A stretch of DNA of 64,000 nucleotides from Candidatus Thermokryptus mobilis (GTDB taxonomy: Bacteria > Bacteroidota > Ignavibacteria > Kryptoniales > Kryptoniaceae), in assembly GCF_900070205.1 (NCBI RefSeq), contig NZ_FAOO01000010.1:1-64000 (forward strand). The letters are read 5' to 3'. Both the position numbers and the translations under genes were made by a program. The notes below the pieces were generated by a model. That model was not told where the DNA came from. It did not search any database and was given only the letters and a program-made list of their open reading frames with translations. Below are positions 3,491 to 49,344 of this stretch, piece by piece. Position 1 is the first letter of the stretch. Each line of letters opens with the position of its first letter.

Positions 3491-3530
3491 AAAAAAATGG
3501 GCTTGAAAAAACAATTAATCCCCCATTTTT
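3491..3530 (-). terminator. Probable terminator of the chemosensory operon
   Basis: On the minus strand AAAAATGGG (3522-3530) can pair with CCCATTTTT (3493-3501) across a 20-base loop, followed by a run of T. The upstream arm overlaps the last codons of cheB. It lies at the end of the twelve-gene operon, before asnS. The stem is AT-rich, so termination strength is uncertain. Confidence 0.45.
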
Positions 3531-4573
3531 AAAACAACCTTTGATATGGCTTCCCCAATTTTCTCCAAAGGTAGGATGCTATCTGCAAGCCCGGCATCAA
3601 CGACCGCTTTCGGCATACCCCAAACAACGGATGTCTCCTCATCCTGCGCTATGACATATCCCCCTTTCTCTTTAACCTTTCTCAAACCTTCAAGCCCATC
3701 TTTACCCATCCCAGTCATTATCACTCCCAAAACTTTATCCCCGAAAACATCCGAAGCTGAACTCATCATCAAATCAACCGACGGTTTGTAAAGTGTATCT
3801 GGAAAATCAACTATCCGAACTATTTTATTCCCGCCGTTTTTTTCAAAAACTAAATTTCTTCCACCTTGTGCAACAAGAGCAAGTCTAGACCTTACAACAT
3901 CACCGTCACTTGCTTCACGAACTTCAATCTTACTTATTGAGTTTAACCTTTCGGCAAGTAATCTTGTAAAATTAGGAGGCATATGCTGTGCTATTACAAT
4001 CCCAACTGGAAAGTCAGCCGGTATCTTTGACAAAACCTCCTGAAGCGCAACAGGACCTCCTGTTGATACACCAATAGCGACAAGCTCAAACTCTCTTTTA
4101 ACAGGTCTAAATTTTTCCTTTCTGATACTTTCAACCTCGTATTTGTAAATTTTCCTTCGGATGAATTTGCTGTTTACTATGGATTTTACTTTTTGAATCA
4201 ATTCGTCTTTAATTTTCACTATGTCAAGCGAGACATAAGAAAGTTGTTTTGGTATGAAATCAACTGCCCCGAGTTTAAGTGCCTCAAGCGTCACCCTTGC
4301 ACCCTCTGTTGTAAGTGAGCTGACCATGAGAACTGGAAGTGGGCATTCCTTCATTATAATTTTCAAAGCCGTTAATCCATCCATCCTTGGCATCTCCACA
4401 TCAAGGGTGACAATGTCAGGTTTAAGTGCTTTTATCCTGTCAATTGCTTCAGACCCATCTCTTGCGGTTGCGACAACTTCTATCTCAGGGTCCGACTCAA
4501 GCATCATTGAAATAGCTTTCCTCATAAAGGCGGAGTCATCAACGACCAGAACTTTTATTTTTCTCTCCGACAT
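3515..4573 (-). CDS. cheB: Chemotaxis methylesterase/deamidase CheB
   Basis: Removes methyl groups from glutamates on the chemoreceptor and is activated by CheA phosphorylation. An N-terminal receiver domain (residues about 5-125) has the acidic pair VDDS and the phospho-acceptor Asp58 in TLDVEMP. The C-terminal methylesterase domain (about 165-350) shows catalytic Ser in GVSTGGP, His in AQHMPP and Asp in TGMGKDG. Length 352 is normal. The ATG has a strong GGAGGGGAG directly upstream. It is the last gene of the operon, 12 bases after cheA, and completes the adaptation pair with cheR at 7875. Confidence 0.96.
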   Translation of the reverse strand: MSERKIKVLVVDDSAFMRKAISMMLESDPEIEVVATARDGSEAIDRIKALKPDIVTLDVEMPRMDGLTALKIIMKECPLPVLMVSSLTTEGARVTLEALKLGAVDFIPKQLSYVSLDIVKIKDELIQKVKSIVNSKFIRRKIYKYEVESIRKEKFRPVKREFELVAIGVSTGGPVALQEVLSKIPADFPVGIVIAQHMPPNFTRLLAERLNSISKIEVREASDGDVVRSRLALVAQGGRNLVFEKNGGNKIVRIVDFPDTLYKPSVDLMMSSASDVFGDKVLGVIMTGMGKDGLEGLRKVKEKGGYVIAQDEETSVVWGMPKAVVDAGLADSILPLEKIGEAISKVVLKMGD

Positions 4574-4585
4574 CTCCCCTCCGAT

Positions 4586-6274
4586 TTAAACTATGAAACT
4601 ATACGAGTTTTCAGCCGACATTTTGAAAATTTGAGCCACATCAACGATCATCCTAACTGTCCCATCACCAAGGATCGTCGCCCCAGCTATTCCCCTTACA
4701 TTATTAAGATACGAACCGAGCGATTTTATAACCACTTCTTTTTGACCGACCAATCCATCAACCACTATTCCGAGCTTCTTTTCGGCAAGACCAACAACGA
4801 CAACATAAAGATTCTCTTTATAATCACCATTTGAACTCAAATTGAAAACATTCGCCAATCTAATAAGCGGAAGAACCGAATCCCTCAATCTTATTATCTC
4901 CTTACCTTTGATTGAATGAACCTGTATTTGTGGGATTCTAACAACTTCAATTACAGATGAAAGCGGTATTATAAAAATTTCACCACAGACATCAACAAGC
5001 AGACCTTGAATTATGGCAAGCGTAAGAGGCAATTTCAGTATAAATTTTGTCCCTTGACCCAAGGTTGATTGAACATCAATCATCCCATTCAATTTCGTTA
5101 TATTCGCCTTTACAACATCAAGCCCAACACCGCGACCTGAAACATTTGTCACTTTGCTTGCTGTGCTAAACCCAGGCAAAAAAATCAAATTCAAAGCATC
5201 CCTATCACTTATTGAACTTGCCTCTTGCTCTGTTATAATCTTTTTTTCAACCGCTTTTCTTCTAACCCTTTCAGGGTCTATGCCACGACCATCGTCTTCA
5301 ACTGTTATAACGATGAAATTTCCCTCGTGTTCAGCTCTCAAAATAACTTTACCCTTCTCCGGTTTCCCGATCGCTTTTCTCTCCTGTGGCGTTTCAATTC
5401 CATGGTCAATTGCATTCCTTATCAAATGAACAAGTGGATCGTGTATGAACTCTATAACAGATTTGTCAACCTCAGTTTCTTCACCATAAATTAAAAGATC
5501 CACCTCCTTATTCAAATCCCTTGAAAGGTCTCTGACAATGCGCGGGAACTTACTGAAAACTTTCGCAATTGGCATCATCCTTGCACGCATTACAACAGCT
5601 TGAAGCTCGGAAGTTAAATAATCAACCTGAGCTACCGTATCCATAAGCTCACGGGCAAGCGACTCACCCTCAAATCTCTCAACAACCCCAGAAACTATCT
5701 GCGATAACCTGTTTCTCCCAAGAACGAGCTCGCCTACAAGGTTCATCAACTCGTCAAGCCGTTCAACATCAATTCTCACCGTCTTGTCAATAACCTTTGA
5801 TTGCAATCTCTGCGATGTATTGTCAACCGAAGCTTTCTCAATATCTTCTTCAATTAAAAATTCACCACGACTTATTCTTTCAAGTTTTGAAACAACACCG
5901 CTTATATCAATCGGGCTTAAATCATTTGCCTCAAGCTTTGAAAGTAAAATCTTCATCAAATCCTGCGCCTCAAGAATCACATCCATTATCTCAGGGTTCA
6001 ACTTCAATTCAAACCTTCGCAATTTGTTCAACACATCCTCAAACTTATGGGTCAACTCGCTCATCTGCTCAAAACCGATAAACGAAGAAGTTCCTTTAAT
6101 AGTATGAACATAACGAAAGATCGCATTTAAAAGCTCAACATCGTTTTGTCTTTTCTCAAGCTCAATCAAATCATTGTCAAGTTTATCCAGAAGTTCCTTT
6201 GTCTCAACGATAAAACTTTCAACTATCTCTTTCATTTCATCATCAAAAATTGCCGGGGTTGACATCTCCCTCAC
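4586..6274 (-). CDS. cheA: Chemotaxis histidine kinase CheA, lacking a P2 domain
   Basis: Cytoplasmic kinase that phosphorylates CheY and CheB under receptor control. P1 (about 1-115) carries the phospho-His at residue 57 in VHTIKGTSSF. P3 dimerisation helices start near 165 (RLDELMNLVGELV), followed by the P4 ATPase domain with N-box HLIRNAIDHG, G1 DDGRGID and G2 GRGVGLDVV, then a P5 CheW-like domain to the end. Only about 50 residues separate P1 and P3, so the P2 response-regulator docking domain is missing, as in some other bacteria. The GTG at 6274 or the ATG at 6265 could be the start; the latter has GGTGAGG just upstream. It overlaps cheZ by 24-32 bases. Confidence 0.95.
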   Translation of the reverse strand: MREMSTPAIFDDEMKEIVESFIVETKELLDKLDNDLIELEKRQNDVELLNAIFRYVHTIKGTSSFIGFEQMSELTHKFEDVLNKLRRFELKLNPEIMDVILEAQDLMKILLSKLEANDLSPIDISGVVSKLERISRGEFLIEEDIEKASVDNTSQRLQSKVIDKTVRIDVERLDELMNLVGELVLGRNRLSQIVSGVVERFEGESLARELMDTVAQVDYLTSELQAVVMRARMMPIAKVFSKFPRIVRDLSRDLNKEVDLLIYGEETEVDKSVIEFIHDPLVHLIRNAIDHGIETPQERKAIGKPEKGKVILRAEHEGNFIVITVEDDGRGIDPERVRRKAVEKKIITEQEASSISDRDALNLIFLPGFSTASKVTNVSGRGVGLDVVKANITKLNGMIDVQSTLGQGTKFILKLPLTLAIIQGLLVDVCGEIFIIPLSSVIEVVRIPQIQVHSIKGKEIIRLRDSVLPLIRLANVFNLSSNGDYKENLYVVVVGLAEKKLGIVVDGLVGQKEVVIKSLGSYLNNVRGIAGATILGDGTVRMIVDVAQIFKMSAENSYSFIV

Positions 6275-7082
6275 CGCTTTTTATTTTCTCGCTCTTATTG
6301 AAAAGTTTATCTATTTCCTCTTGGGATGCCCTATCCCCCTCATCTCTTTCAATGATACCATTTAAAATCTTATCAATCGCTTTCTGCTTTGCCCCGGTCC
6401 TATCATATTCAGCATTAGGGTTAAAAGAAGTGACATTCCTACCCGAGACGGAAGAATCCTTTTTAATATCAAGATTACCGAGTTTCCCAAGCAGATGATT
6501 CAATCTCTCTTGAACTGACTCTATAAGATGATTTATTGCTGATATTTGTTGAGCCGTTATGTCCTGAAACTGCAAAGCAACCATTATGTTATCAGCATCC
6601 CTCTTCACATCTGAAAGCTTTTCAAGTATATCATCAAACCCATTGAACGATTTAAACGCCGTATAAAACTTAACCCAATTTTGAGAAACTTTATCAAATT
6701 CACCTCTCTCAATGTATCTCCCAATCCTCCCCGCAATTTTTTTCTGCTTTTCGTAAGATTGCCTCATGGCATTTATAAAACCCCTCATCTCGCCAAATTT
6801 CAAGCTCATCTGGTCAAGTGCATCAAGAATTTCCGTCGTCGCAACCTCCGTCGTTTTCGTAACCGTGTTAAGTTGATTTGATGCCCGAGGAATCTTATTT
6901 GAGCTCTCTTCAAGCGACTTGTTTATCTCATCAAGCATCGGACCAACCTCTCGGACGAAATTGAACAACTCCTCAAGAAAAGGTATAACCTTCTGACCGA
7001 GGATAAATATCGCCTTTAACTCTTCTATCTCCCGCAAAATTGAATCAACTTGCTTCACTAATTTTGTTTCACCATTCACCAT
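6243..7082 (-). CDS. cheZ: CheZ-family phosphatase of CheY-P
   Basis: A helical 279-residue protein with the CheZ catalytic pattern at ALQFQDITAQQI: the Asp and Gln four residues later match the D-x3-Q that dephosphorylates CheY-P in known CheZ proteins. Upstream helices would form the long hairpin of the family. The C-terminus ends with SQEEIDKLF, resembling the CheY-binding peptide at the N-terminus of FliM (consensus like SQxEIDALL) and functionally like the CheZ C-terminal CheY-docking tail. A disordered linker of about 60 residues precedes it. Excellent ribosome site AAGGAGGTGAT. It lies between cheY and cheA, fitting the role. CheZ outside proteobacteria is less common. Confidence 0.85.
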   Translation of the reverse strand: MVNGETKLVKQVDSILREIEELKAIFILGQKVIPFLEELFNFVREVGPMLDEINKSLEESSNKIPRASNQLNTVTKTTEVATTEILDALDQMSLKFGEMRGFINAMRQSYEKQKKIAGRIGRYIERGEFDKVSQNWVKFYTAFKSFNGFDDILEKLSDVKRDADNIMVALQFQDITAQQISAINHLIESVQERLNHLLGKLGNLDIKKDSSVSGRNVTSFNPNAEYDRTGAKQKAIDKILNGIIERDEGDRASQEEIDKLFNKSEKIKSGEGDVNPGNF

Positions 7083-7095
7083 ACATCACCTCCTT

Positions 7096-7479
7096 TTAAA
7101 CTGTTTTCAAGATTTGTTCTATCTTTTCCTTCAACACTTGCGGAGTAAATGGCTTGACTATGTAGTTATTCACCCTCGCTTCAAGTGCCTCAATGACATC
7201 CTGTTTCATACCACGAGTTGTCACCATGAGAATGGGGATATTTGCAAAATTTGGATCCGACCTAACAGCTCTTGTAAGCTCAAGACCGGTCATATTTGGC
7301 ATATTCCAGTCGGTTATTATGAAATCAATTCTCTCCGAATATAACTTCGCAAGCGCATCCTTTCCATCTTCTGCCTCAACAATATCAGTGTAACCAATGT
7401 TCTTCAAGGCGTTGATCACTATCCTTCTCATCGTGGGTGAATCGTCAACAACAAGAAATCTTATCTTCCCCTCTTCCAT
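7096..7479 (-). CDS. cheY: Chemotaxis response regulator CheY
   Basis: A single receiver domain of 127 residues. The acidic pocket is VVDDS, the phospho-acceptor is Asp57 in ITDWNMP, the switch Thr is in MVTTRG and the conserved Lys is in IVKPF. The DWNMPNMTG motif is close to that of true CheY proteins, so this copy is the best candidate for the output regulator. It is followed 13 bases later by cheZ, its probable phosphatase. The start has GGTGAGGAG upstream. Confidence 0.93.
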   Translation of the reverse strand: MEEGKIRFLVVDDSPTMRRIVINALKNIGYTDIVEAEDGKDALAKLYSERIDFIITDWNMPNMTGLELTRAVRSDPNFANIPILMVTTRGMKQDVIEALEARVNNYIVKPFTPQVLKEKIEQILKTV

Positions 7480-7495
7480 AACTCCTCACCCCTTT

Positions 7496-7864
7496 TTAGT
7501 TTAGATATTTTGAAACCTCATATTGAACTCGCTTTGCATTGAACGGTTTAACAAGGTAAGAATTTGCGCCAAGCTTTAAACCCATATCAATACTTTTACC
7601 ATCCGAAAGTGACGAAAGTATGATTATCGGTATATCCTTAAACCTTTCATCCGAACGAAGCGTTTTTATAAGTTCAAAACCATCAAGATTTGGCATGTTA
7701 AGATCGGTTATTATCAGATCAACATTATCAACCCTTCCAAGAACCTCAAAGACCTCCATCCCATCTGAAGCAGTGATGACATTGTATCCCATATTTTCAA
7801 GCGCAAGTGAAACAAATTTTCTTATCGTGGGTGAATCATCAACAACAAGGATTGTTCTTGCCAT
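7496..7864 (-). CDS. CheY-like single-domain response regulator
   Basis: A second stand-alone receiver of 122 residues, with VVDDS, phospho-acceptor Asp54 in ITDLNMP, Ser switch in ILSSLS and Lys in LVKPF. The ATG at 7862-7864 is chosen over a GTG nine bases earlier because GAGGTGAT lies at correct spacing before the ATG and includes that GTG. It sits between cheR and cheY. It may compete with CheY for phosphate from CheA (phosphate sink) or drive a separate output; the sequence does not decide this. Confidence 0.9.
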   Translation of the reverse strand: MARTILVVDDSPTIRKFVSLALENMGYNVITASDGMEVFEVLGRVDNVDLIITDLNMPNLDGFELIKTLRSDERFKDIPIIILSSLSDGKSIDMGLKLGANSYLVKPFNAKRVQYEVSKYLN

Positions 7865-7874
7865 TTTTATCACC

Positions 7875-8765
7875 TCACTCTTTTTTATATGCTACTGCTT
7901 TTTCAAAATAAACCACTTTAAACGCCTTTGTCACATTTCTCAAACTTTCAGAATACCCAACCATAAGATAACCACCTCTATTGAGCGAATCGTAAATTAA
8001 AGAGACAACTTCTCTTCTTGCACCTTCATCAAAATAAATCAAAACATTTCGCAATAGCACAAGGTCAAAACCCTTCATCCCCAGCATCTGAAACTTATCA
8101 ACCAAATTAACCCGCTCAAAACGAACAAGCCGTTTAACCTCATCCCTCAAATAAAATTTATCCCCCTTGATCTCAAAGAATCTACTCAGATAATTTTCTG
8201 GGACGAACCTAACCGAATAATTTCCATATACTCCTATCTTCGCAACCTCAAGGACAGAACCATTGATGTCAGTTCCAATTATTTCAACCACAACATCTGG
8301 AAATTTCGGCTGGATCTTCTCAAGAAAAATCATCGCTATCGTATAGGGCTCTTCACCCGTTGAGCAACCCGCACTCCATATCCTCAAACGCCTAAAACCA
8401 TTCCTCGGCTTTGAATTTATCAACTCGGGCAAAATGTTCTCTTCAATTGCTTTTAATTGCAACTCATCCCTGAAAAAATATGTCTCGTTGACGGTTATCA
8501 ACCCGAACAAAATATCAAGTTCTTTACCCCTATACGGTGAAAACCTCAAAAAATCAATATACTCCCTAAACGAGGACAAACCTAACTGCTCAACTCTCTT
8601 TTTAAGCCGTGACTCTATAAAATATCTTTTGCTATCAGGAAAGAATATACCAGAGACGCGCAAAATGAACCCCCGCAATTCAAAAAATTCATCATCCCTG
8701 AGAACAACATCTGAGGAAGATGTCCTATTTGTAAATTGCGATGTCATCACAAAAAGCTTTCTCAT
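7875..8765 (-). CDS. cheR: Chemotaxis receptor methyltransferase CheR
   Basis: S-adenosylmethionine-dependent methyltransferase that methylates receptor glutamates. The 296-residue protein has the helical CheR N-domain (about 25-95) and a Rossmann methyltransferase domain with WSAGCSTGEEPY, the family SAM motif I, and LRNVLIYFD further on. The ATG overlaps the stop of the preceding HEAT gene as TAATG, indicating translational coupling. The N-terminal 20 residues are Ser/Thr rich and could be trimmed if the Met at residue 8 is used. The receptor lacks an obvious C-terminal CheR-tethering pentapeptide. Confidence 0.95.
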   Translation of the reverse strand: MRKLFVMTSQFTNRTSSSDVVLRDDEFFELRGFILRVSGIFFPDSKRYFIESRLKKRVEQLGLSSFREYIDFLRFSPYRGKELDILFGLITVNETYFFRDELQLKAIEENILPELINSKPRNGFRRLRIWSAGCSTGEEPYTIAMIFLEKIQPKFPDVVVEIIGTDINGSVLEVAKIGVYGNYSVRFVPENYLSRFFEIKGDKFYLRDEVKRLVRFERVNLVDKFQMLGMKGFDLVLLRNVLIYFDEGARREVVSLIYDSLNRGGYLMVGYSESLRNVTKAFKVVYFEKAVAYKKE

Positions 8766-10060
8766 TAAGTTAAATAAATCCTTACAACTGGGTCTTTCTG
8801 AAAATAAGGCAACGCCTTGGCAAATGCATCCGGGCTTAAAAACGGCAGAACTTCAAAAATCAACACCTTTTCATTAGGACTTACCAAGTCAAAAACGGAA
8901 AGAATTCTCTCGGCGATGACATTTTTGATTTCCTCCCCCAAATCAATCAAAATCTCCCTCTTAGCATAAAAAATCTCACCGATTAACTTTACAAATTTAT
9001 CACCTGTAATTGAACTATCATTTAACGCATAACTTATAAATTTCTCCGCATCCGACTTTATTATATCAAAGGCAACTGAAGAAACCTCATCAAAAGATGT
9101 CAAGGAGACATTGATTAAAAAGCCCTTCACCTCATCAAAATCACACCACTTTGACAAAAACTTCAAAAGGTCAATTTTAAAACTTGTGTCATCGCTGTTG
9201 TAAAAAATTTCCTTCGCCCTTTGGAAGAAAAACTTGAAGAAATGTCTGTTTGACTTAAAATTGCATCCGTCACGAGAACAAATCTTAACAATTGATATCA
9301 CTGCCATCTTTTGAATCGCCTTGTTCTCATCATTGACGAGATTGATTAAAAAATCAACCAACGATTTATCCCCGACCTTCCCGAGCGATTCAATAATTGC
9401 ACCTTTAAGTATCGGGTCATCAACTTGGTCAAACAAGTTGATGAGAAATTCATGGATCAATTTTAAAAACTCACTCCCGTGAAATCTCTCAGCTATTTTA
9501 CCAAGCGACTCAACGATTTGAATTTGCGCAAACTCAAACTTCTCAAATGAATCAATTAAAAACTCAACCGTTTTCCCACCGCCGACATTTCCAAGCGCTT
9601 CAATAACCGAGACCACAACATTTGGATCTGGATCGTTTAGTTTCCCAATCAAAAAATCCTCCGTTTTCTCATCTCCTATCAATCCCAAAACATCAATTGC
9701 CATTTTTCTTATATCTTTGTCCTCATGATTTGCCAAACTCAAAAGCGAGGGAACAGCATCTTCCCCAAGCTTAACGAGAAGTTCAGAGGAAAGGTTTTTT
9801 AAGCCAATATCATCAAAGCACATCAACTCACATACACTTTCAACGATTTTCTTTTTCATACCTTCAAAATCACTGGCTATTGACAAAAGCGATTGCGCAA
9901 CTGCATCTCTCACGCCTTTATCTTTATCCCTCAAAAGCCCGATCAACTTTTCAATAACTCCCTCCCTATCGCCAAATTTAACTATCGCCTCAACAGATGC
10001 CCTTCGCTCATCTGGGTCAAAAGAGTCAAGACCTTTTAAAATCACATCAAAAGCCCTCAT
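8765..10060 (-). CDS. HEAT-repeat protein in the chemosensory operon
   Basis: A 431-residue all-helical protein made of about eight or more HEAT/PBS-lyase-like repeats, clearest in the first 260 residues (for example VIEALGNVGGGKTVEFLID and IIESLGKVGDKSLVDFLIN, each about 30-35 residues apart). The C-terminal third is more divergent. No signal peptide or catalytic motif is seen. It overlaps the preceding gene by four bases (ATGA) and the next by one base, so it is an integral part of the operon. HEAT arrays usually scaffold protein complexes; a role in organising the signalling array is inference. Confidence 0.85.
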   Translation of the reverse strand: MRAFDVILKGLDSFDPDERRASVEAIVKFGDREGVIEKLIGLLRDKDKGVRDAVAQSLLSIASDFEGMKKKIVESVCELMCFDDIGLKNLSSELLVKLGEDAVPSLLSLANHEDKDIRKMAIDVLGLIGDEKTEDFLIGKLNDPDPNVVVSVIEALGNVGGGKTVEFLIDSFEKFEFAQIQIVESLGKIAERFHGSEFLKLIHEFLINLFDQVDDPILKGAIIESLGKVGDKSLVDFLINLVNDENKAIQKMAVISIVKICSRDGCNFKSNRHFFKFFFQRAKEIFYNSDDTSFKIDLLKFLSKWCDFDEVKGFLINVSLTSFDEVSSVAFDIIKSDAEKFISYALNDSSITGDKFVKLIGEIFYAKREILIDLGEEIKNVIAERILSVFDLVSPNEKVLIFEVLPFLSPDAFAKALPYFQKDPVVRIYLT

Positions 10061-11382
10061 ACCTCCCGAATTTTTGTTCTAACAATTATGCCTAAATCCT
10101 CCTCAAAAATTGAATTTTTCATATCAAAGCTTATCTCCTCCCTCGCTCCATTTATCTCAAGATAAGTGTTCTTGTAAATTGTTCCATAGACGATAAGCCG
10201 CGCTTTCCCAGCTTTTCTCATATCCTCAAGTAAATTGTTCCTTACAATTTCAAGCTGTTTTATTCGCTTTGGTATCTCATCCCGCCATCTGATCAAATTC
10301 TGAAATTGTCGCTCTTGATCTTCTGGCAACTCGCCCCAATCAATTTTTAACCTTGCAAGTGCGTAAATTTCTGACTTAACACCCTCAAGATACGATTCAA
10401 GTCGCCTTATTTCAGCCGTAACTTTTTTAAGCTTCTCAACTTGAACATCACGCCTGCCAATTATGACAACCGTCCTTGAATATTCCGCACCACCAAGCGT
10501 CTTCACCTCAACCTCACCCTTGCTCATTACCACACCGCCAATTATCACAGCATCCTTTGCGATTAACCTCCCTCCACAAACTATGTTTGCATTTACAGCT
10601 TCCCTTTTTATCACAACATTCCCATCAGCAACGAGATTTTGATTCGTTATATATCTCAACGAAACATCCCCGTGAACATAAAGCTTACCCCTGCCATAAC
10701 CTATAAACCCACCGCCAATTAAAGCATTTCCCTCCACTTCAACTTCAGCATCCTCAATGTTCCCGTAAACTTCAAGATTTTTACCAACTTTAACCCTTGA
10801 ACCCGACTTTATATCCCCCTTGACGATCAATGTCCCAATGAAATTCACCTCACCAAAGCTTACATCAACATTCCCATCTATCGTTAAAATTGGGGAGACC
10901 TCAATAGTCCCATCATCGTTTAAAATAAGATTACCATCCGCACTCGCAACTATGACAGAGTTATCTTGTTCTGAAAAAGACACATTTTCTCCCAAAAATA
11001 TATGATTTGCCTTTCTCCCAACTCTCGCCTTTAAAATCTCACCCGTCACAGCAACACCATCAACACCTGATGTAGGCGGATAAACTACCGCTATCCTCTC
11101 ACCAGCTTTCACATTCCTTATCAATGTCCTCCTGCTCATATCAAACTCAAACGAAATATAGCCATCCCTACCATCAACAGGCGGACTGCCCTCAGCAATT
11201 AAAAATTTACCTTCACTTGGATTTTCAATGAGCTTTTCTATCTCAACCATCTTTATCCCGTAGACAACACCAGACGACTTAGCAAAATTCACAATGTCAT
11301 CAACGCATTTACCTTCAAGCTCTTCTTTTGATTCAATGATTAAATATGCCTTTAACTTATCTGACGCTATCTCAATTTTCAT
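10057..11382 (-). CDS. DUF342 / FapA-family protein
   Basis: A 441-residue cytoplasmic protein of the FapA (flagellar assembly protein A, DUF342) family. After about 110 N-terminal residues it has a right-handed beta-helix-like region rich in Gly and Val with recurring short turns such as GNLEVYGNIEDAEVEVEGNA-type steps (about 150-300), then a helical coiled-coil (about 310-380) and a beta C-terminus. FapA proteins are often encoded near chemotaxis or flagellar genes, but no flagellar gene is present here. It overlaps cheW by 11 bases and the HEAT gene by 4. Exact function unknown. Confidence 0.85.
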   Translation of the reverse strand: MKIEIASDKLKAYLIIESKEELEGKCVDDIVNFAKSSGVVYGIKMVEIEKLIENPSEGKFLIAEGSPPVDGRDGYISFEFDMSRRTLIRNVKAGERIAVVYPPTSGVDGVAVTGEILKARVGRKANHIFLGENVSFSEQDNSVIVASADGNLILNDDGTIEVSPILTIDGNVDVSFGEVNFIGTLIVKGDIKSGSRVKVGKNLEVYGNIEDAEVEVEGNALIGGGFIGYGRGKLYVHGDVSLRYITNQNLVADGNVVIKREAVNANIVCGGRLIAKDAVIIGGVVMSKGEVEVKTLGGAEYSRTVVIIGRRDVQVEKLKKVTAEIRRLESYLEGVKSEIYALARLKIDWGELPEDQERQFQNLIRWRDEIPKRIKQLEIVRNNLLEDMRKAGKARLIVYGTIYKNTYLEINGAREEISFDMKNSIFEEDLGIIVRTKIREV

Positions 11383-11878
11383 CGCTATGGCTGAAAACTT
11401 CTTTTAAAGTTTCTCTTTCCTCAACATTTAGGACCTTTTTGAGGTCAAGCAAAATTAAAAGACGATTTTCAAGCTTTGCTATTCCGATTATGTATTCGCT
11501 ATCAATCCCACTGATGAGCTCCGGTGGTGGCTCAACAACGCTTTTCGGAACCCTCAACACCTCACTCACACTATCAACTATGAAACCGATAGTCTTGTCA
11601 TCAATCTCAACCACAACTATTCTCGTATCTTTATCGTTTTCTTTTCTGCCAAGACCTAATCTCCTCCTTAAATTCACAACTGGGACAATCCTTCCGCGCA
11701 AATTCATCACACCTTCAACAAAATCAGGAGCATTCGGGACACGCGTTACTTCAACGAGGCGATTTATCTCCTGAACTTGAAGGATGTCAACTCCAAACTC
11801 CTCATTCCCAATTTTAAAACTCACCAACTGCAAAACTTCCTTGTAATTTTCAGCGCTAACAACATCCTGTAAATTCAT
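11372..11878 (-). CDS. cheW: Chemotaxis coupling protein CheW
   Basis: A single CheW domain of 168 residues linking the receptor to CheA. Family features are FKIGNEEFGVDILQVQEI near the start, then EVTRVPNAPDFVEGVMNLRG and the RIVPVVNLRR strand. The last 20 residues form a charged tail. A strong AAGGAG lies eight bases before the ATG. It follows the receptor gene by about 48 bases and precedes the FapA-like gene. Confidence 0.95.
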   Translation of the reverse strand: MNLQDVVSAENYKEVLQLVSFKIGNEEFGVDILQVQEINRLVEVTRVPNAPDFVEGVMNLRGRIVPVVNLRRRLGLGRKENDKDTRIVVVEIDDKTIGFIVDSVSEVLRVPKSVVEPPPELISGIDSEYIIGIAKLENRLLILLDLKKVLNVEERETLKEVFSHSDEN

Positions 11879-11926
11879 CTTTGTGTCTCCTTTTTTTAAT
11901 TTTTATCGGAATATTTCAAAAATTTC

Positions 11927-13804
11927 TTAAACTCCATTGCCTCCAACCCCTATAAATTTCTTCCCGTATTCCGCCCTCTCAATAACCTGACCGATATTAA
12001 ATCTCATAACCATTTGTCTCAATTTTTCAGTCAATCCACTTAAATCGTCAACCGCCTTTGCGATTTGATGAACCCCTGCAGATGTTTGCTCAGCAATTGA
12101 ACTTATTGATTCAACCGATTTACTTATCTCCTCACTGACTTTTGATTGTTCGGTGTTCGCACGAGAAATTTCAGAGATTAAATTAGCTACATCATTTGCA
12201 TTTTGAACTATTTGTTTTAAGGCAAGATTTGCATTGTCTGCAAGTTTAATTCCCGCCTCAGCTACCTCAACCCCAGATTCCATAATTTTAACTACTTCGT
12301 CTGTATCAGATTGTATTTGCTTTATCATTTTGCTTATTTCCTTTGTAGCCTTCATTGTTCTTTCAGCAAGTTTTCTGACCTCATCTGCAACAACTGCAAA
12401 ACCACGCCCCTGCTCACCTGCACGAGCTGCTTCAATAGCGGCGTTCAAAGCGAGTAAATTCGTCTGATCAGCAATATCCTCAATCACATCTATTATCTCC
12501 CCGATTTGACTGCTGCTTTTACCGAGAACTTGAACGCTTTGAGCTGAATTTCTAACAACATCCGCAAGGCGACGCATCTGCTCAATCGTGGCTATGACTG
12601 CTTTGCTCCCTTCATTTGCAAAGGAACTATTCGCCTGAGCAAGTTCAGCTGCCCTTTCAGCCCCGCGCGCATTTTCAATCACAGTCCTTGACATCTCTTC
12701 AATAGCAGAAACAACCTCAGCTATTTGCCTTGCTTGATCCTGAACAGCAGTTGACATCTCCTCAGTTGAACTACTGATCTGGGATGTCGCATTCGCAACA
12801 GCATTGCTTGCATCAATTATCTCTTTTATTAAACCCCTCAAATCAACTATCATCTTGTTCAACTTCATAATCAAAGCCCCAACCTCATCATCTTTTTCAG
12901 GGATTCCTTCCTTAGTTAAATCCCCATTTGAAACCGCCTCAATTATATCAAAAATTTTCCTTATCTGAACTTCAAGATATTCCTGTTGCTGTTGTATTCT
13001 CCCCTTCGCCTGCTCCGCCTCAACCCTTAATCTCTCTGCTAACTCCCTCTGCGATGAAATCTCCTCAATTGATTCCCTTATGCTCTCAACCATCTTGTTA
13101 AATGACCTGACAAGAACACCTATCTCATCACCACGATCAACCCATTCCTTTATCTCAACATTCACATCACCATTGGCCACAGTCTCAGCAGCTCTCTGAA
13201 CGCTCTCAACCGGTTTGACAAACCAAGCGACCACGATATAACTAAACACAAGCCCAAGCAATAAAGCAAACACAATAAATCCCAAATTAAGCAAATGCGC
13301 CCCTGATAACACCTCTTTGATTGTAACCTTTGAAGCACCAAATCTAACATATCCAACAACCTCACTATCACGATAAACCTTCGCTTGGACATCAAGGATA
13401 TCCTCACCCCTGACATTCAAATCAACATAACTTACATCCTCTGAAAATTTTCTTAAACCTCCCATTTCGCCCCCTAAATAATCAAGATTTTTCTCAGCCA
13501 AGACCTTGCCATCAACCCCGTAAATCACAATATAACGGAATCTCACTAACTCATTCTGATAAAAATTCTCAATGACTTGCTTGAGTTGATTCACATCTTG
13601 AAGCAAGATCAAATAAACTGATTCATGCGAGAGCAATTCGCTCACACTTTTAACCCTTTTGATAAATTGTCTCTCAATCTCTCTTCCAAGGATCGTTGAA
13701 TAAATCAGGGATACAGCAATAGCGATAAAAAGAACCATAATTTCAATCCCTATGAAAGTTTTATAACGCCACTTCAAGTTGTTGAATTTTTTAATTAGCC
13801 ACAT
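11927..13804 (-). CDS. Methyl-accepting chemotaxis protein
   Basis: Inner-membrane chemoreceptor of 625 residues. A transmembrane helix at about 19-38, a periplasmic domain of about 130 residues, a second helix at about 172-196, a HAMP domain to about 250, a linker coiled-coil, and a cytoplasmic signalling domain with the hairpin tip [19 protein letters not shown]. The periplasmic part looks like a dCache/sCache-type sensor in size, but that is a guess. No C-terminal CheR-binding pentapeptide. The start has GGAGAGGGTG upstream and lies inside the end of the binding-protein gene (14-base overlap), suggesting that the two proteins work together. Confidence 0.95.
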
Positions 13805-14309
13805 ATTGCACCCTCTCCTTATAGTTTTCTGGAATTGTCAAGTTAAGAGCATTCGTAATTTTATCGTTGACAAAAATTTTTAAATCTTCACCCGCTTCAA
13901 GTGTAAAAAGCCCACCCTCTTTAACCATCTCAACGCTTGGAACAGCAACCGGAATCTTGTTCAAAAGCGAGTTCTTTAAAATATATTCTCTTGCTATTGG
14001 ATGAGCAGAAACATCTTGCACATCAAAAATCCATAAGAAATCAACACCGCCCTTTATAACTTCATTAAATCTCTGAGCAATGTCCTTCAACTCTCTCACA
14101 TCCCCAATTACAATTTTCACCCCTGCTGAAAAACCCGCCTTTTGAAGTTTTTCAACTAATCCCGGATTTTTGCTCAAATCACAAAGCAAACCGACTTTCT
14201 GCATATCTGGCTTGAACGATTTCATCATAAAAAGATATTGAAGTGGCGTCGCCTTCTGAGAAAAGGCAACGAAATGAAACAAAACAAAGAAAAATAAAAT
14301 TTTCCTCAT
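13791..14309 (-). CDS. Secreted ABC-type substrate-binding-like protein
   Basis: A 172-residue protein with an N-terminal signal peptide (about residues 1-17, ending near AFSQ). The rest resembles one lobe of the PF04392 (ABC transporter substrate-binding, TrpX/DUF534-like) family: [22 protein letters not shown], then [20 protein letters not shown] and [16 protein letters not shown]. It is shorter than the usual 300 residues, so only the core of one domain plus part of the other remains. No ABC permease or ATPase is adjacent; instead the gene overlaps the receptor gene, so it probably presents a ligand to the receptor. Ligand unknown. Confidence 0.75.
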
Positions 14310-14318
14310 ACTTCAACC

Positions 14319-14696
14319 TCAATTTGTTTTGTTTAAATCAGCAAGAATTTGAGTTATAATTCTCTCAAGGACACCAAGGTCAGCTGGCTTCTGCAAAATC
14401 GCTGTTACTTCAATCCCTTCAAGTTTTTCATTCGTTATCTCGCCAACATATCCACTTAAAATCACGATTTTAAAATCACGCTTGAACTTCAAAATTTCCC
14501 TTATCATCTCAATCCCAGTCATATCAGGCATCTTATAATCAGTGATTAAAATTTGAAACTCAACCTGTTGAGCTTTTTTAATTCCTTCCGAACCATTACC
14601 TGCTTCCACAACCTCAAGCCCAAGGATCGTTAGAAATTCCTTCAAAGTCACACGGACAAGTTCATCGTCATCAACAAGAAGAATTCGCTTTGGCAT
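14319..14696 (-). CDS. Single-domain response regulator, first gene of the chemosensory operon
   Basis: A 125-residue receiver domain: VDDDE acidic pair, phospho-acceptor Asp53 in ITDYKMP, Ser switch in ILSGYVG and Lys in LQKPAD. The YKMPDMTGIE pattern is closer to receivers of NtrC-type and hybrid systems than to CheY. It is the promoter-proximal gene, 9 bases before the binding-protein gene. Its target may be outside chemotaxis. No Shine-Dalgarno is visible before the ATG. Confidence 0.88.
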   Translation of the reverse strand: MPKRILLVDDDELVRVTLKEFLTILGLEVVEAGNGSEGIKKAQQVEFQILITDYKMPDMTGIEMIREILKFKRDFKIVILSGYVGEITNEKLEGIEVTAILQKPADLGVLERIITQILADLNKTN

Positions 14697-48088: not shown

Positions 48089-48715
48089 TCAAGCGGATTT
48101 TACGGCGGGTTCATAGTCCTCACAATCAAGTCGTATCTCAACGATTGAAAGTGGCTTATCAAGAAGTCCACAATGGTGTGGTGATTTTGAATCGGGATGG
48201 ACATTTTTTTGAAAGTAAATGCAGGAAAAACACATCCTTTGAATAGTTATAATTCCCGCATCGTAAAGCGCACCTATTAAATTCAAAATAAAAGAAAGAA
48301 ACATCTCCTTTTCTTTAACGCTAAAATTTTTTAACTCGCTTTTTAAAACATCCGCCCAATTTGAAACATCTTCGGCTACTTTTTTCCCTTTTTGAGTCAA
48401 TTTTAGAAAGTAATTTCTTCTATCCTCTCTATTTTCAACCCTTTTGACAAGTCCTTTCTCCTCAAGGGATGAGATAGCATCGCTCACAGTTGCCTTCGTC
48501 AGAGCAAACTCATTTGCGATATCAGTTATACGAGACCTTGAAGCTCGGTTATAGGCAAGATAAACGAGAAATTGAATTTGAATCGGGCTTAAATTTTCCT
48601 CTTTTGCAACATCCCATAGCAAAAGTTTGAAAACCCTTGATATTCTCTCAAGCCCTGCGACAATTTTAGCATCTATATTTCTCTCTTGTTCCTTTGGATC
48701 AAAGATTGATGACAT
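48089..48715 (-). CDS. MarR-family regulator with a four-cysteine C-terminal tail
   Basis: A 208-residue regulator. Residues about 30-150 form a MarR winged helix (LSPIQIQFLVYLAYN; EEKGLVKRVENREDRRN). The last 55 residues have Cys in CFSC, HHC and DC, spaced C-x2-C-x16-C-x15-C, with nearby His residues. This could hold a metal or iron-sulfur cluster and make binding redox- or metal-responsive. It lies downstream of the cytochrome P460 gene, whose promoter carries a palindrome (49300-49314). This is a family of its own that I know only as an uncharacterised MarR variant. Confidence 0.88.
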   Translation of the reverse strand: MSSIFDPKEQERNIDAKIVAGLERISRVFKLLLWDVAKEENLSPIQIQFLVYLAYNRASRSRITDIANEFALTKATVSDAISSLEEKGLVKRVENREDRRNYFLKLTQKGKKVAEDVSNWADVLKSELKNFSVKEKEMFLSFILNLIGALYDAGIITIQRMCFSCIYFQKNVHPDSKSPHHCGLLDKPLSIVEIRLDCEDYEPAVKSA

Positions 48716-48741: not shown

Positions 48742-48763
48742 GCGGGGGAAATAATCCCCCCGC
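48742..48763 (-). terminator. Probable terminator between cytochrome P460 and marR
   Basis: A perfect 7-base GC-rich stem: GCGGGGG at 48742-48748 pairs with CCCCCGC at 48757-48763 (loop of 8). On the minus strand a weak T-rich stretch follows. It may terminate or attenuate P460 transcription before marR. Confidence 0.55.
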
Positions 48764-48777
48764 CTTCTCAAATAAAT

Positions 48778-49269
48778 TTACTTCCTGAACTTGCTAAAAA
48801 CAAAATCCTCCTTCTCCTGAGACGCATGACAAGAGAAACATTCTTGCTCTGCATCTTTCACGACCCTCTCTTTGGTATCGCCTTTAAAAGCTTCAAATCC
48901 CCAGCCACCGGTATCTTTGAACTTCTTTGAATCTTTATACATCACGCCAACAACCTTCCTTGGACCCTCAACATATGTATTGTTTTCTTCCTTTGCCTCG
49001 AGCAAATCAAATATGATAACCGAGCCATCCGGGAATTTACCCGTTCTATACCCACGCAGGGCTTTATCGTTTGCATAAATATGATGAATTCCACCAAACG
49101 CCTCATAAAGCGGATGCCCTGGGAGTATAAGCATTGACTTAACATGAACCCAATTTCTGTATCCTTCGGGATACGGAACTTGTGACTTCCCCTGACCGGA
49201 TAAACTTAAAACAAATAGTGCTAAAGCGATAGAGATAATCCCGAAAAAGATGACAGATTTTTTAACCAT
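48778..49269 (-). CDS. Cytochrome P460-family protein
   Basis: A 163-residue exported protein: signal peptide or anchor (about 1-25), a P460-type beta domain (YPEGYRNWVHVKSMLI; PDGSVIIFDLLEA) and one c-type haem motif CFSCH near the C-terminus. Cytochromes P460 oxidise hydroxylamine or detoxify nitric oxide in ammonia oxidisers and methanotrophs; the real substrate here is unknown. AAAGGTG precedes the ATG by five bases. It has its own promoter overlapped by a palindrome. Confidence 0.88.
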   Translation of the reverse strand: MVKKSVIFFGIISIALALFVLSLSGQGKSQVPYPEGYRNWVHVKSMLILPGHPLYEAFGGIHHIYANDKALRGYRTGKFPDGSVIIFDLLEAKEENNTYVEGPRKVVGVMYKDSKKFKDTGGWGFEAFKGDTKERVVKDAEQECFSCHASQEKEDFVFSKFRK

Positions 49270-49299
49270 GATGGCACCTTTGATTTTGTTTTAAAATAT

Positions 49300-49314
49300 G
49301 TTAGGATTCCTAAC
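49300..49314. promoter_or_regulatory. Perfect palindrome GTTAGGA-T-TCCTAAC, probable MarR operator
   Basis: Arms of seven bases (GTTAGGA and TCCTAAC) with a one-base centre. It lies one base downstream of the predicted -10 element, covering the likely transcription start of the P460 gene, and 31 bases upstream of its ATG. MarR proteins commonly bind such TTAGG-CCTAA-type sites and block RNA polymerase, and a MarR gene is the next gene downstream. Confidence 0.6.
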
Positions 49315-49315
49315 T

Positions 49316-49344
49316 AATATAATAAATCAAAACAAAAAAGTCAA
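49316..49344 (-). promoter_or_regulatory. Sigma-70-type promoter of the cytochrome P460 gene
   Basis: On the minus strand TTGACT (49339-49344) and TATATT (49316-49321) are 17 bases apart. Transcription would begin near 49309, inside the palindrome at 49300-49314, giving a leader of about 40 bases. Confidence 0.6.

Follow-up and report, generated by a model that had tools for sequence, protein, structure and literature searches.

We analysed the first 64,000 nucleotides of contig NZ_FAOO01000010.1 of Candidatus Thermokryptus mobilis, a bacterium of hot springs; we refer to this stretch as the window. Two consecutive genes on the minus strand of the window lie downstream of a predicted promoter. 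The first gene (48778..49269) encodes a 163-aa haem protein, described as exported, that belongs to the Pfam family Cytochrome_P460 (PF16694, E 1.6e-36) and contains one CxxCH haem motif, which reads CFSCH. The second gene, marR (48089..48715), encodes a 208-aa protein with a winged-helix core at approximately residues 1-155 (Pfam MarR_2, E 7.5e-12). Read along the minus strand, the promoter consists of the -35 element TTGACT (49344-49339), a spacer of 17 nt and the -10 element TATATT (49321-49316), followed, after a single A, by the candidate operator palindrome GTTAGGAATCCTAAC (49314-49300, a feature to which no strand is assigned), in which the arms GTTAGGA and TCCTAAC flank a central T; the cytochrome gene starts approximately 30 nt downstream of the palindrome. 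The TTGACT-N17-TATATT combination occurs only once in the whole window, both strands included. The original prediction, which described this promoter, the palindrome one base past the -10 element, and marR as the next gene downstream, with a C-x2-C-x16-C-x15-C tail in its product, was accurate in all these respects.

The 62-nt gap between the cytochrome gene and marR contains a GC-rich hairpin (48742..48763, minus strand; fold z = -2.68), the stem-forming sequence of which could be aligned in six genomes. The hairpin is found in all six sequences from the genus, with varying stem bases and no clear T tract, and could be a partial terminator or an mRNA stabiliser that may keep the expression of MarR below that of the cytochrome. 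Elsewhere in the window, positions 3515-14696 are occupied by a long chemotaxis-type cluster, with CheB-, CheA-, CheY-, CheW-, CheR- and receptor-like genes recognized by eye.

By itself, the palindrome is unremarkable, as repeats of its kind are about as frequent in the window as chance would predict: perfect inverted repeats with the 7-1-7 layout number 8, and 20 first-order Markov copies contain 8.4 on average. This count would be compatible with the palindrome being a chance occurrence, or else a feature acting at the RNA level, for instance a weak hairpin in the 5'-UTR or a terminator, instead of a protein-binding site, and the scanner that we used indeed classes it as terminator-like. 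It is conservation that sets the palindrome apart from chance: it is retained within the genus and recurs in other phyla beside MarR proteins of the same family. An orthologue of the MarR protein, with 63-70% identity, was detected in five of the six other genomes of the genus that were searched, and in all five, the palindrome is located upstream of the cytochrome gene, being identical in four and matching at 14 of the 15 bases in the fifth. The two promoter hexamers, each invariant in all six genus sequences, and the palindrome stand out as invariant blocks, with diverging DNA around them. Thus, the absence of the palindrome from orthologous loci, which was specifically looked for, is not what is observed in the genus or, as described below, in the wider family.

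A search of the complete genome for further copies, the check suggested with the prediction, showed that the exact 15-bp site is unique. Matches with up to three mismatches are not in excess either (54, compared with 121 for the backwards pattern), so a larger regulon in this genome can be rejected. One such near-match (C4:174212), which is probably fortuitous, abuts the start codon of a gene recognized by eye as glycogen synthase-like.

The cytochrome downstream of the palindrome

The closest relatives of the window cytochrome with solved structures are cytochromes c'-beta from Methylococcus (6hih, E 1.6e-52) and Thermus (7ead, E 2.1e-47), for neither of which do we know of a described regulator; the true cytochrome P460 (6hiu, E 1.4e-10) lags far behind. 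According to the available part of a published review, the cytochromes c'-beta are distinguished by Phe61, which replaces the cross-linking Lys, Gly82, which replaces a carboxylate, and the capping Phe32; the physiological role is described there as undetermined, with nitrosative defence or NO trafficking proposed, and the same available text names no regulator (PMC11928373). When aligned to 6hih and its two Phe-to-Val variants, the window cytochrome shows Phe, Gly and Phe in all three positions, the same signature as in its two closest solved relatives. The lysine that forms the haem cross-link in true P460 (Lys78 of McP460, corresponding to Phe61 of McCP-beta) is accordingly replaced by Phe, and Gly occupies the place of the distal carboxylate, at the Gly82 position of McCP-beta. 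Thus, the protein combines the P460-type fold family and a single CxxCH motif with the Phe/Gly/capping Phe set of cytochrome c'-beta; the designation of the target as a cytochrome P460 in the original prediction holds at the level of Pfam family membership but not as the identity of a true P460. Given these residues, the cytochrome should be expected to bind NO rather than to oxidise hydroxylamine.

The four-cysteine MarR protein

Assignment of the regulator to the MarR family is straightforward. The protein matches two winged helix-turn-helix profiles, PF12802 (45.7 bits, cut-off 27) and PF01047 (35.7 bits, cut-off 24.6), both of which are also matched by 81 of the 81 relatives, whereas its score to Rrf2, the family of NsrR, is 17.3 bits, under the Pfam cut-off of 30. 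The AlphaFold2 model built from the 81-sequence alignment (pLDDT 86.8) has a MarR fold that is closest to MepR of Staphylococcus aureus among the solved structures (Z 15.2, rmsd 2.3, 137 residues aligned), and MepR is also the best sequence match among the solved structures (E 2.9e-14). The likeness to MepR, a self-repressing regulator, appears to extend to DNA recognition: MepR uses a GTTAG signature, as stated in the available parts of two reports (PMC8044140, PMC3617543), and GTTAG...CTAAC forms the outer part of the Kryptonia site. MepR differs in its target, a multidrug efflux pump, and in the compounds to which it responds, the substrates of that pump (PMC3617543, available part), and the matches between the window protein and solved MarR proteins stop near residue 155, so that the tail with the four cysteines is an addition to all of them.

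This tail (48122..48232, minus strand) has the spacing C162-x2-C165-x16-C182-x15-C198, with all four cysteines invariant in 81 of the 81 aligned proteins. Modelled alone with AlphaFold2, the tail reaches medium confidence (pLDDT 75.8, pTM 0.56). A Foldseek search with this model yielded a best E-value of 6.9, and comparison of the tail sequence with solved structures yielded nothing under E 0.8, each a weak test for 49 residues; altogether, no known metal-site fold matched the tail in sequence, Foldseek or profile comparisons. High-potential iron-sulfur proteins (HiPIP) resemble the tail in the similar order of the four cysteines and in a C-x-L-[IL]-x-x-P-[IL] stretch, and the Pfam HPIP_like family matched one of 16 tails (E 0.01). 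However, hhalign comparison with seven HiPIP stretches returned probabilities of only 0.3% and 2.3%, so that homology is not shown and HiPIP is retained as no more than a weak lead. A profile of the tail, run against 198 genomes of the phylum, produced 17 strong matches (E <=8e-13), all of them in MarR loci. The weak matches include a CoiA-like protein, identified by eye (locus L215, 1480-2481), that carries a C-terminal four-cysteine stretch similar to the MarR tail (profile E 1.6e-4); the tail may thus be a small module common to other proteins. The natural reading of the four invariant cysteines is that they hold an iron-sulfur or zinc site.

Well-known NO-responsive regulators, such as NsrR, HcpR and NorR, control overlapping genes, including hcp and globins, and belong to protein families other than MarR. 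Judged by its description, the closest functional parallel to the window protein is ArnR of Corynebacterium, a winged-helix repressor that carries a C-terminal Fe-S sensor region and targets the promoters of narK and of hmp, a gene for NO detoxification (PMC12343034, available part). The two proteins differ in that, according to the same source, ArnR has three conserved cysteines (179, 193 and 223) that coordinate a [4Fe-4S] cluster, compared with the four invariant, differently spaced ones here (162, 165, 182 and 198).

The predicted operator across the MarR family

A profile of 11 MarR proteins retrieved 348 relatives from a species-level genome collection, and the 80 best of these were retained. 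Among these 80, same-genus relatives came from Candidatus Kryptonium, Chrysopegis and a Kryptonia bin, and the phyla represented were Bacteroidota, Acidobacteriota, KSB1, Calditrichota, Spirochaetota, Aminicenantes and a Caldisericota bin; one further relative comes from a Bacillota genome. The same search found the protein in 28 of 395 genomes of the phylum. We then merged 117 MarR ORFs, by identity over the last 150 residues, into 106 loci with a total of 594 kb of sequence (one locus, L130, was left out because it lacked a MarR ORF under the ORF rule used) and scanned them for the family consensus of the operator, TTAGGANTCCTAA. Allowing for up to one mismatch, we found 169 sites, 53 of them exact, as opposed to 2 sites, none exact, in the same DNA read backwards. 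At least one site is present in 96 of the 106 loci, and an exact one in 49; the remaining 10 loci contain no site at this level of stringency. The sites are mostly located in front of genes: only 9 of the 169 fall within ORFs, and 150 are followed by an ORF start within 130 nt, with distances of 30-50 nt prevailing. In the family as a whole, the site extends to TAGTTAGGANTCCTAACTA.

Co-occurrence of the site with the regulator was assessed in 390 genomes of the phylum, where exact TTAGGANTCCTWA is present in 22 of the 28 genomes with the MarR protein (it is missing in the other 6) as against 45 of the 362 genomes without it (Fisher p = 1e-13). In other genomes, remote exact sites are mostly within ORFs or before unrelated genes; two, however, precede genes for cytochrome c'-beta (G122 and G404). 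Starting from the cytochrome instead, we examined 119 genomes of the class and found the site upstream of 10 of the 11 strong c'-beta genes (nine exact, one with a single mismatch) compared with none of the 12 weaker P460 relatives. In four genomes (G038, G122, G435 and G404), the site accompanies the c'-beta gene, with the MarR gene located on another contig; one genome (G054) has a strong c'-beta gene and neither the MarR protein nor the site.

These comparisons, which amount to strong evidence of a palindromic operator, are hard to explain unless the four-cysteine MarR family binds the predicted site. At the level of comparative genomics, they establish the putative operator, its pairing with the MarR family and its placement on promoters, and we consider the operator-regulator pair to be nearly certain. 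The proposal that the MarR protein acts at the palindrome on a P460 gene is thereby borne out with respect to the link between regulator and operator, through conservation and co-occurrence, and amended with respect to the target, which has the features of a cytochrome c'-beta.

Mode of action, regulon and candidate signal

In the genus, the site begins 1 bp past the -10 element. Bacteroidetes-type promoters have a -7 box with the consensus TAnnTTTG, and in the larger set of loci, such boxes start at fixed offsets from the start of the site, either 10 (26 sites) or 14 (42 sites). With either placement, the bound protein would sit over the core promoter, as expected of a repressor, in agreement with the earlier suggestion that the MarR protein blocks transcription. 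The same arrangement bears on the reading of the palindrome as an RNA-level or chance feature: Bacteroidetes-type sites lie upstream of the -7 box and hence would not be transcribed whole, so that an RNA hairpin or terminator can be rejected, and what is conserved over genera and phyla, beside one regulator family, is the sequence itself, beyond the pairing of the arms. We therefore regard that reading as extremely improbable.

An activating or dual role of the MarR protein, with binding just upstream of the -7 box aiding RNA polymerase in flavobacteria and repression confined to Kryptonia, could be proposed given that the Bacteroidetes-type sites, at offsets 10 and 14, are upstream of the -7 box and overlap it instead of being downstream. 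However, overlap with a core element leaves the polymerase little space, and the Kryptonia site is past the -10 element, where activators are rare; activation thus appears quite improbable, and we infer that the protein, very likely, is a repressor. In many flavobacterial loci, the site is located directly upstream of marR itself, which suggests that the predicted repressor is autoregulated.

The genes behind the sites include those for cytochrome c'-beta (12 cases), protoglobin (11), a 77-aa thioredoxin-like protein (49), a 241-aa secreted protein (25) and a DUF2024 protein (11), the last three being the commonest in flavobacteria. Also found behind a site or within a MarR operon are the hybrid cluster protein (Hcp; TIGR01703, E 2.4e-194) with a ferredoxin-like partner, a DUF438-hemerythrin-PAS protein and a truncated-type globin. 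Cytochrome c'-beta, protoglobin, the hybrid cluster protein, DUF438-hemerythrin and truncated globins are families that handle NO or hydroxylamine; we know of no established role in NO metabolism for the 77-aa thioredoxin-like protein, DUF2024 or the 241-aa secreted protein. The 77-aa protein contains a CxxC motif, and its best solved relative is the thioredoxin 2k8s (E 1.3e-24), from the ammonia oxidiser Nitrosomonas europaea. Its gene and that of DUF2024, which has a C-x2-C-H stretch, recur together under the operator in Flavobacteria (for example, L073, 2380-2613, and L092, 2674-2937). In its 25 cases, the secreted protein of approximately 241 aa is encoded directly behind the operator (L066, 885-1610; L055, 1934-2680; and similar loci), and the one example that we scanned had no match in Pfam, NCBIfam or solved structures. 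In a HBSIN02 bin, a gene for an exported 102-aa protein with one CxxCH haem motif (L052, 2096-2404) separates the c'-beta gene from the operator.

The presence of the hybrid cluster protein, protoglobin, DUF438-hemerythrin and truncated globin behind the site or in the operon makes a nitrogen oxide, one of the two signals put forward in the original prediction beside a redox signal, plausible, and we consider it reasonably likely to be the one sensed. Production of NO by the cell itself is unsupported, as the nitrite reductases do not follow the MarR protein: NirK, over the curated cut-off, was detected in 4 of the 28 genomes with MarR, compared with 10 of 52 same-family controls, and is thus not commoner with MarR; for NirS, the corresponding counts are one of 28 and none of 52. 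The genome of the window has neither NirK nor NirS at the curated cut-off, in agreement with the available part of a report on Kryptonia, according to which these bacteria encode an N2O reductase and no other denitrification step, and co-occur with N2O-making Thermus (PMC4737851). NO would then reach Kryptonia from outside, from their neighbours.

The same repressor and operator could instead respond to general redox stress, to oxygen or peroxide stress, or to a reactive sulfur species, sensed through oxidation of the cysteines or through a zinc-thiolate site, with the haem and thioredoxin-like proteins being broad oxidative-stress genes. The lack of association between the nitrite reductases and MarR is in line with such a signal, as are the thioredoxin-like CxxC protein being the commonest flavobacterial target and the capacity of globins and protoglobins to bind O2 as well. 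Nevertheless, Hcp, DUF438-hemerythrin and cytochrome c'-beta indicate nitrogen species over peroxide, and catalase, peroxiredoxin and superoxide dismutase were not seen among the listed gene clusters behind the sites, so that a general redox signal seems unlikely.

With nitrogen species as the favoured signal, the following scheme can be proposed. A MarR dimer, with its C-terminal four-cysteine metal-binding tail, would bind TTAGGANTCCTAA and block transcription of its own operon at the core promoter. In the window, the operon would consist of the cytochrome c'-beta gene followed by marR, and with the regulator gene in the same operon as its target, the switch would be self-limiting. NO or a related reactive nitrogen species would modify the metal centre, for which an iron-sulfur cluster or iron is our first guess and a zinc-thiolate the second, whereupon the repressor would release the DNA and the NO-binding cytochrome would be produced. 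Elsewhere, in other phyla, this pair of regulator and operator would control the hybrid cluster protein, protoglobin, DUF438-hemerythrin and truncated globin. Taken as a whole, a four-cysteine MarR repressor at this operator that is released by NO or related species at a metal centre appears to be a likely model.

Individually, MarR, cytochrome c'-beta, Hcp and protoglobin are all of known kinds. In the open-access literature, outside of which most subscription papers fall, we found no description of the four-cysteine MarR regulator or of its site, and none of three exact forms of its sequence appears in the articles searched; we are aware of no comparable regulator dedicated to NO in Bacteroidota and the uncultured phyla concerned. 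There is, in our estimate, an even prospect that these observations reveal an undescribed, widespread class of NO-responsive regulators, in which the MarR winged helix is joined to a new, probably iron-sulfur, four-cysteine tail, the operator is the same across several phyla, and the nitrosative-stress regulon includes the thioredoxin-like/DUF2024 pair and the 241-aa protein. If so, these three uncharacterised proteins would be linked to a stress and acquire a role in the defence against NO, and cytochrome c'-beta would be placed in a testable physiological context. With one regulator family and one operator, nitrosative-stress regulons would become readable from sequence alone.
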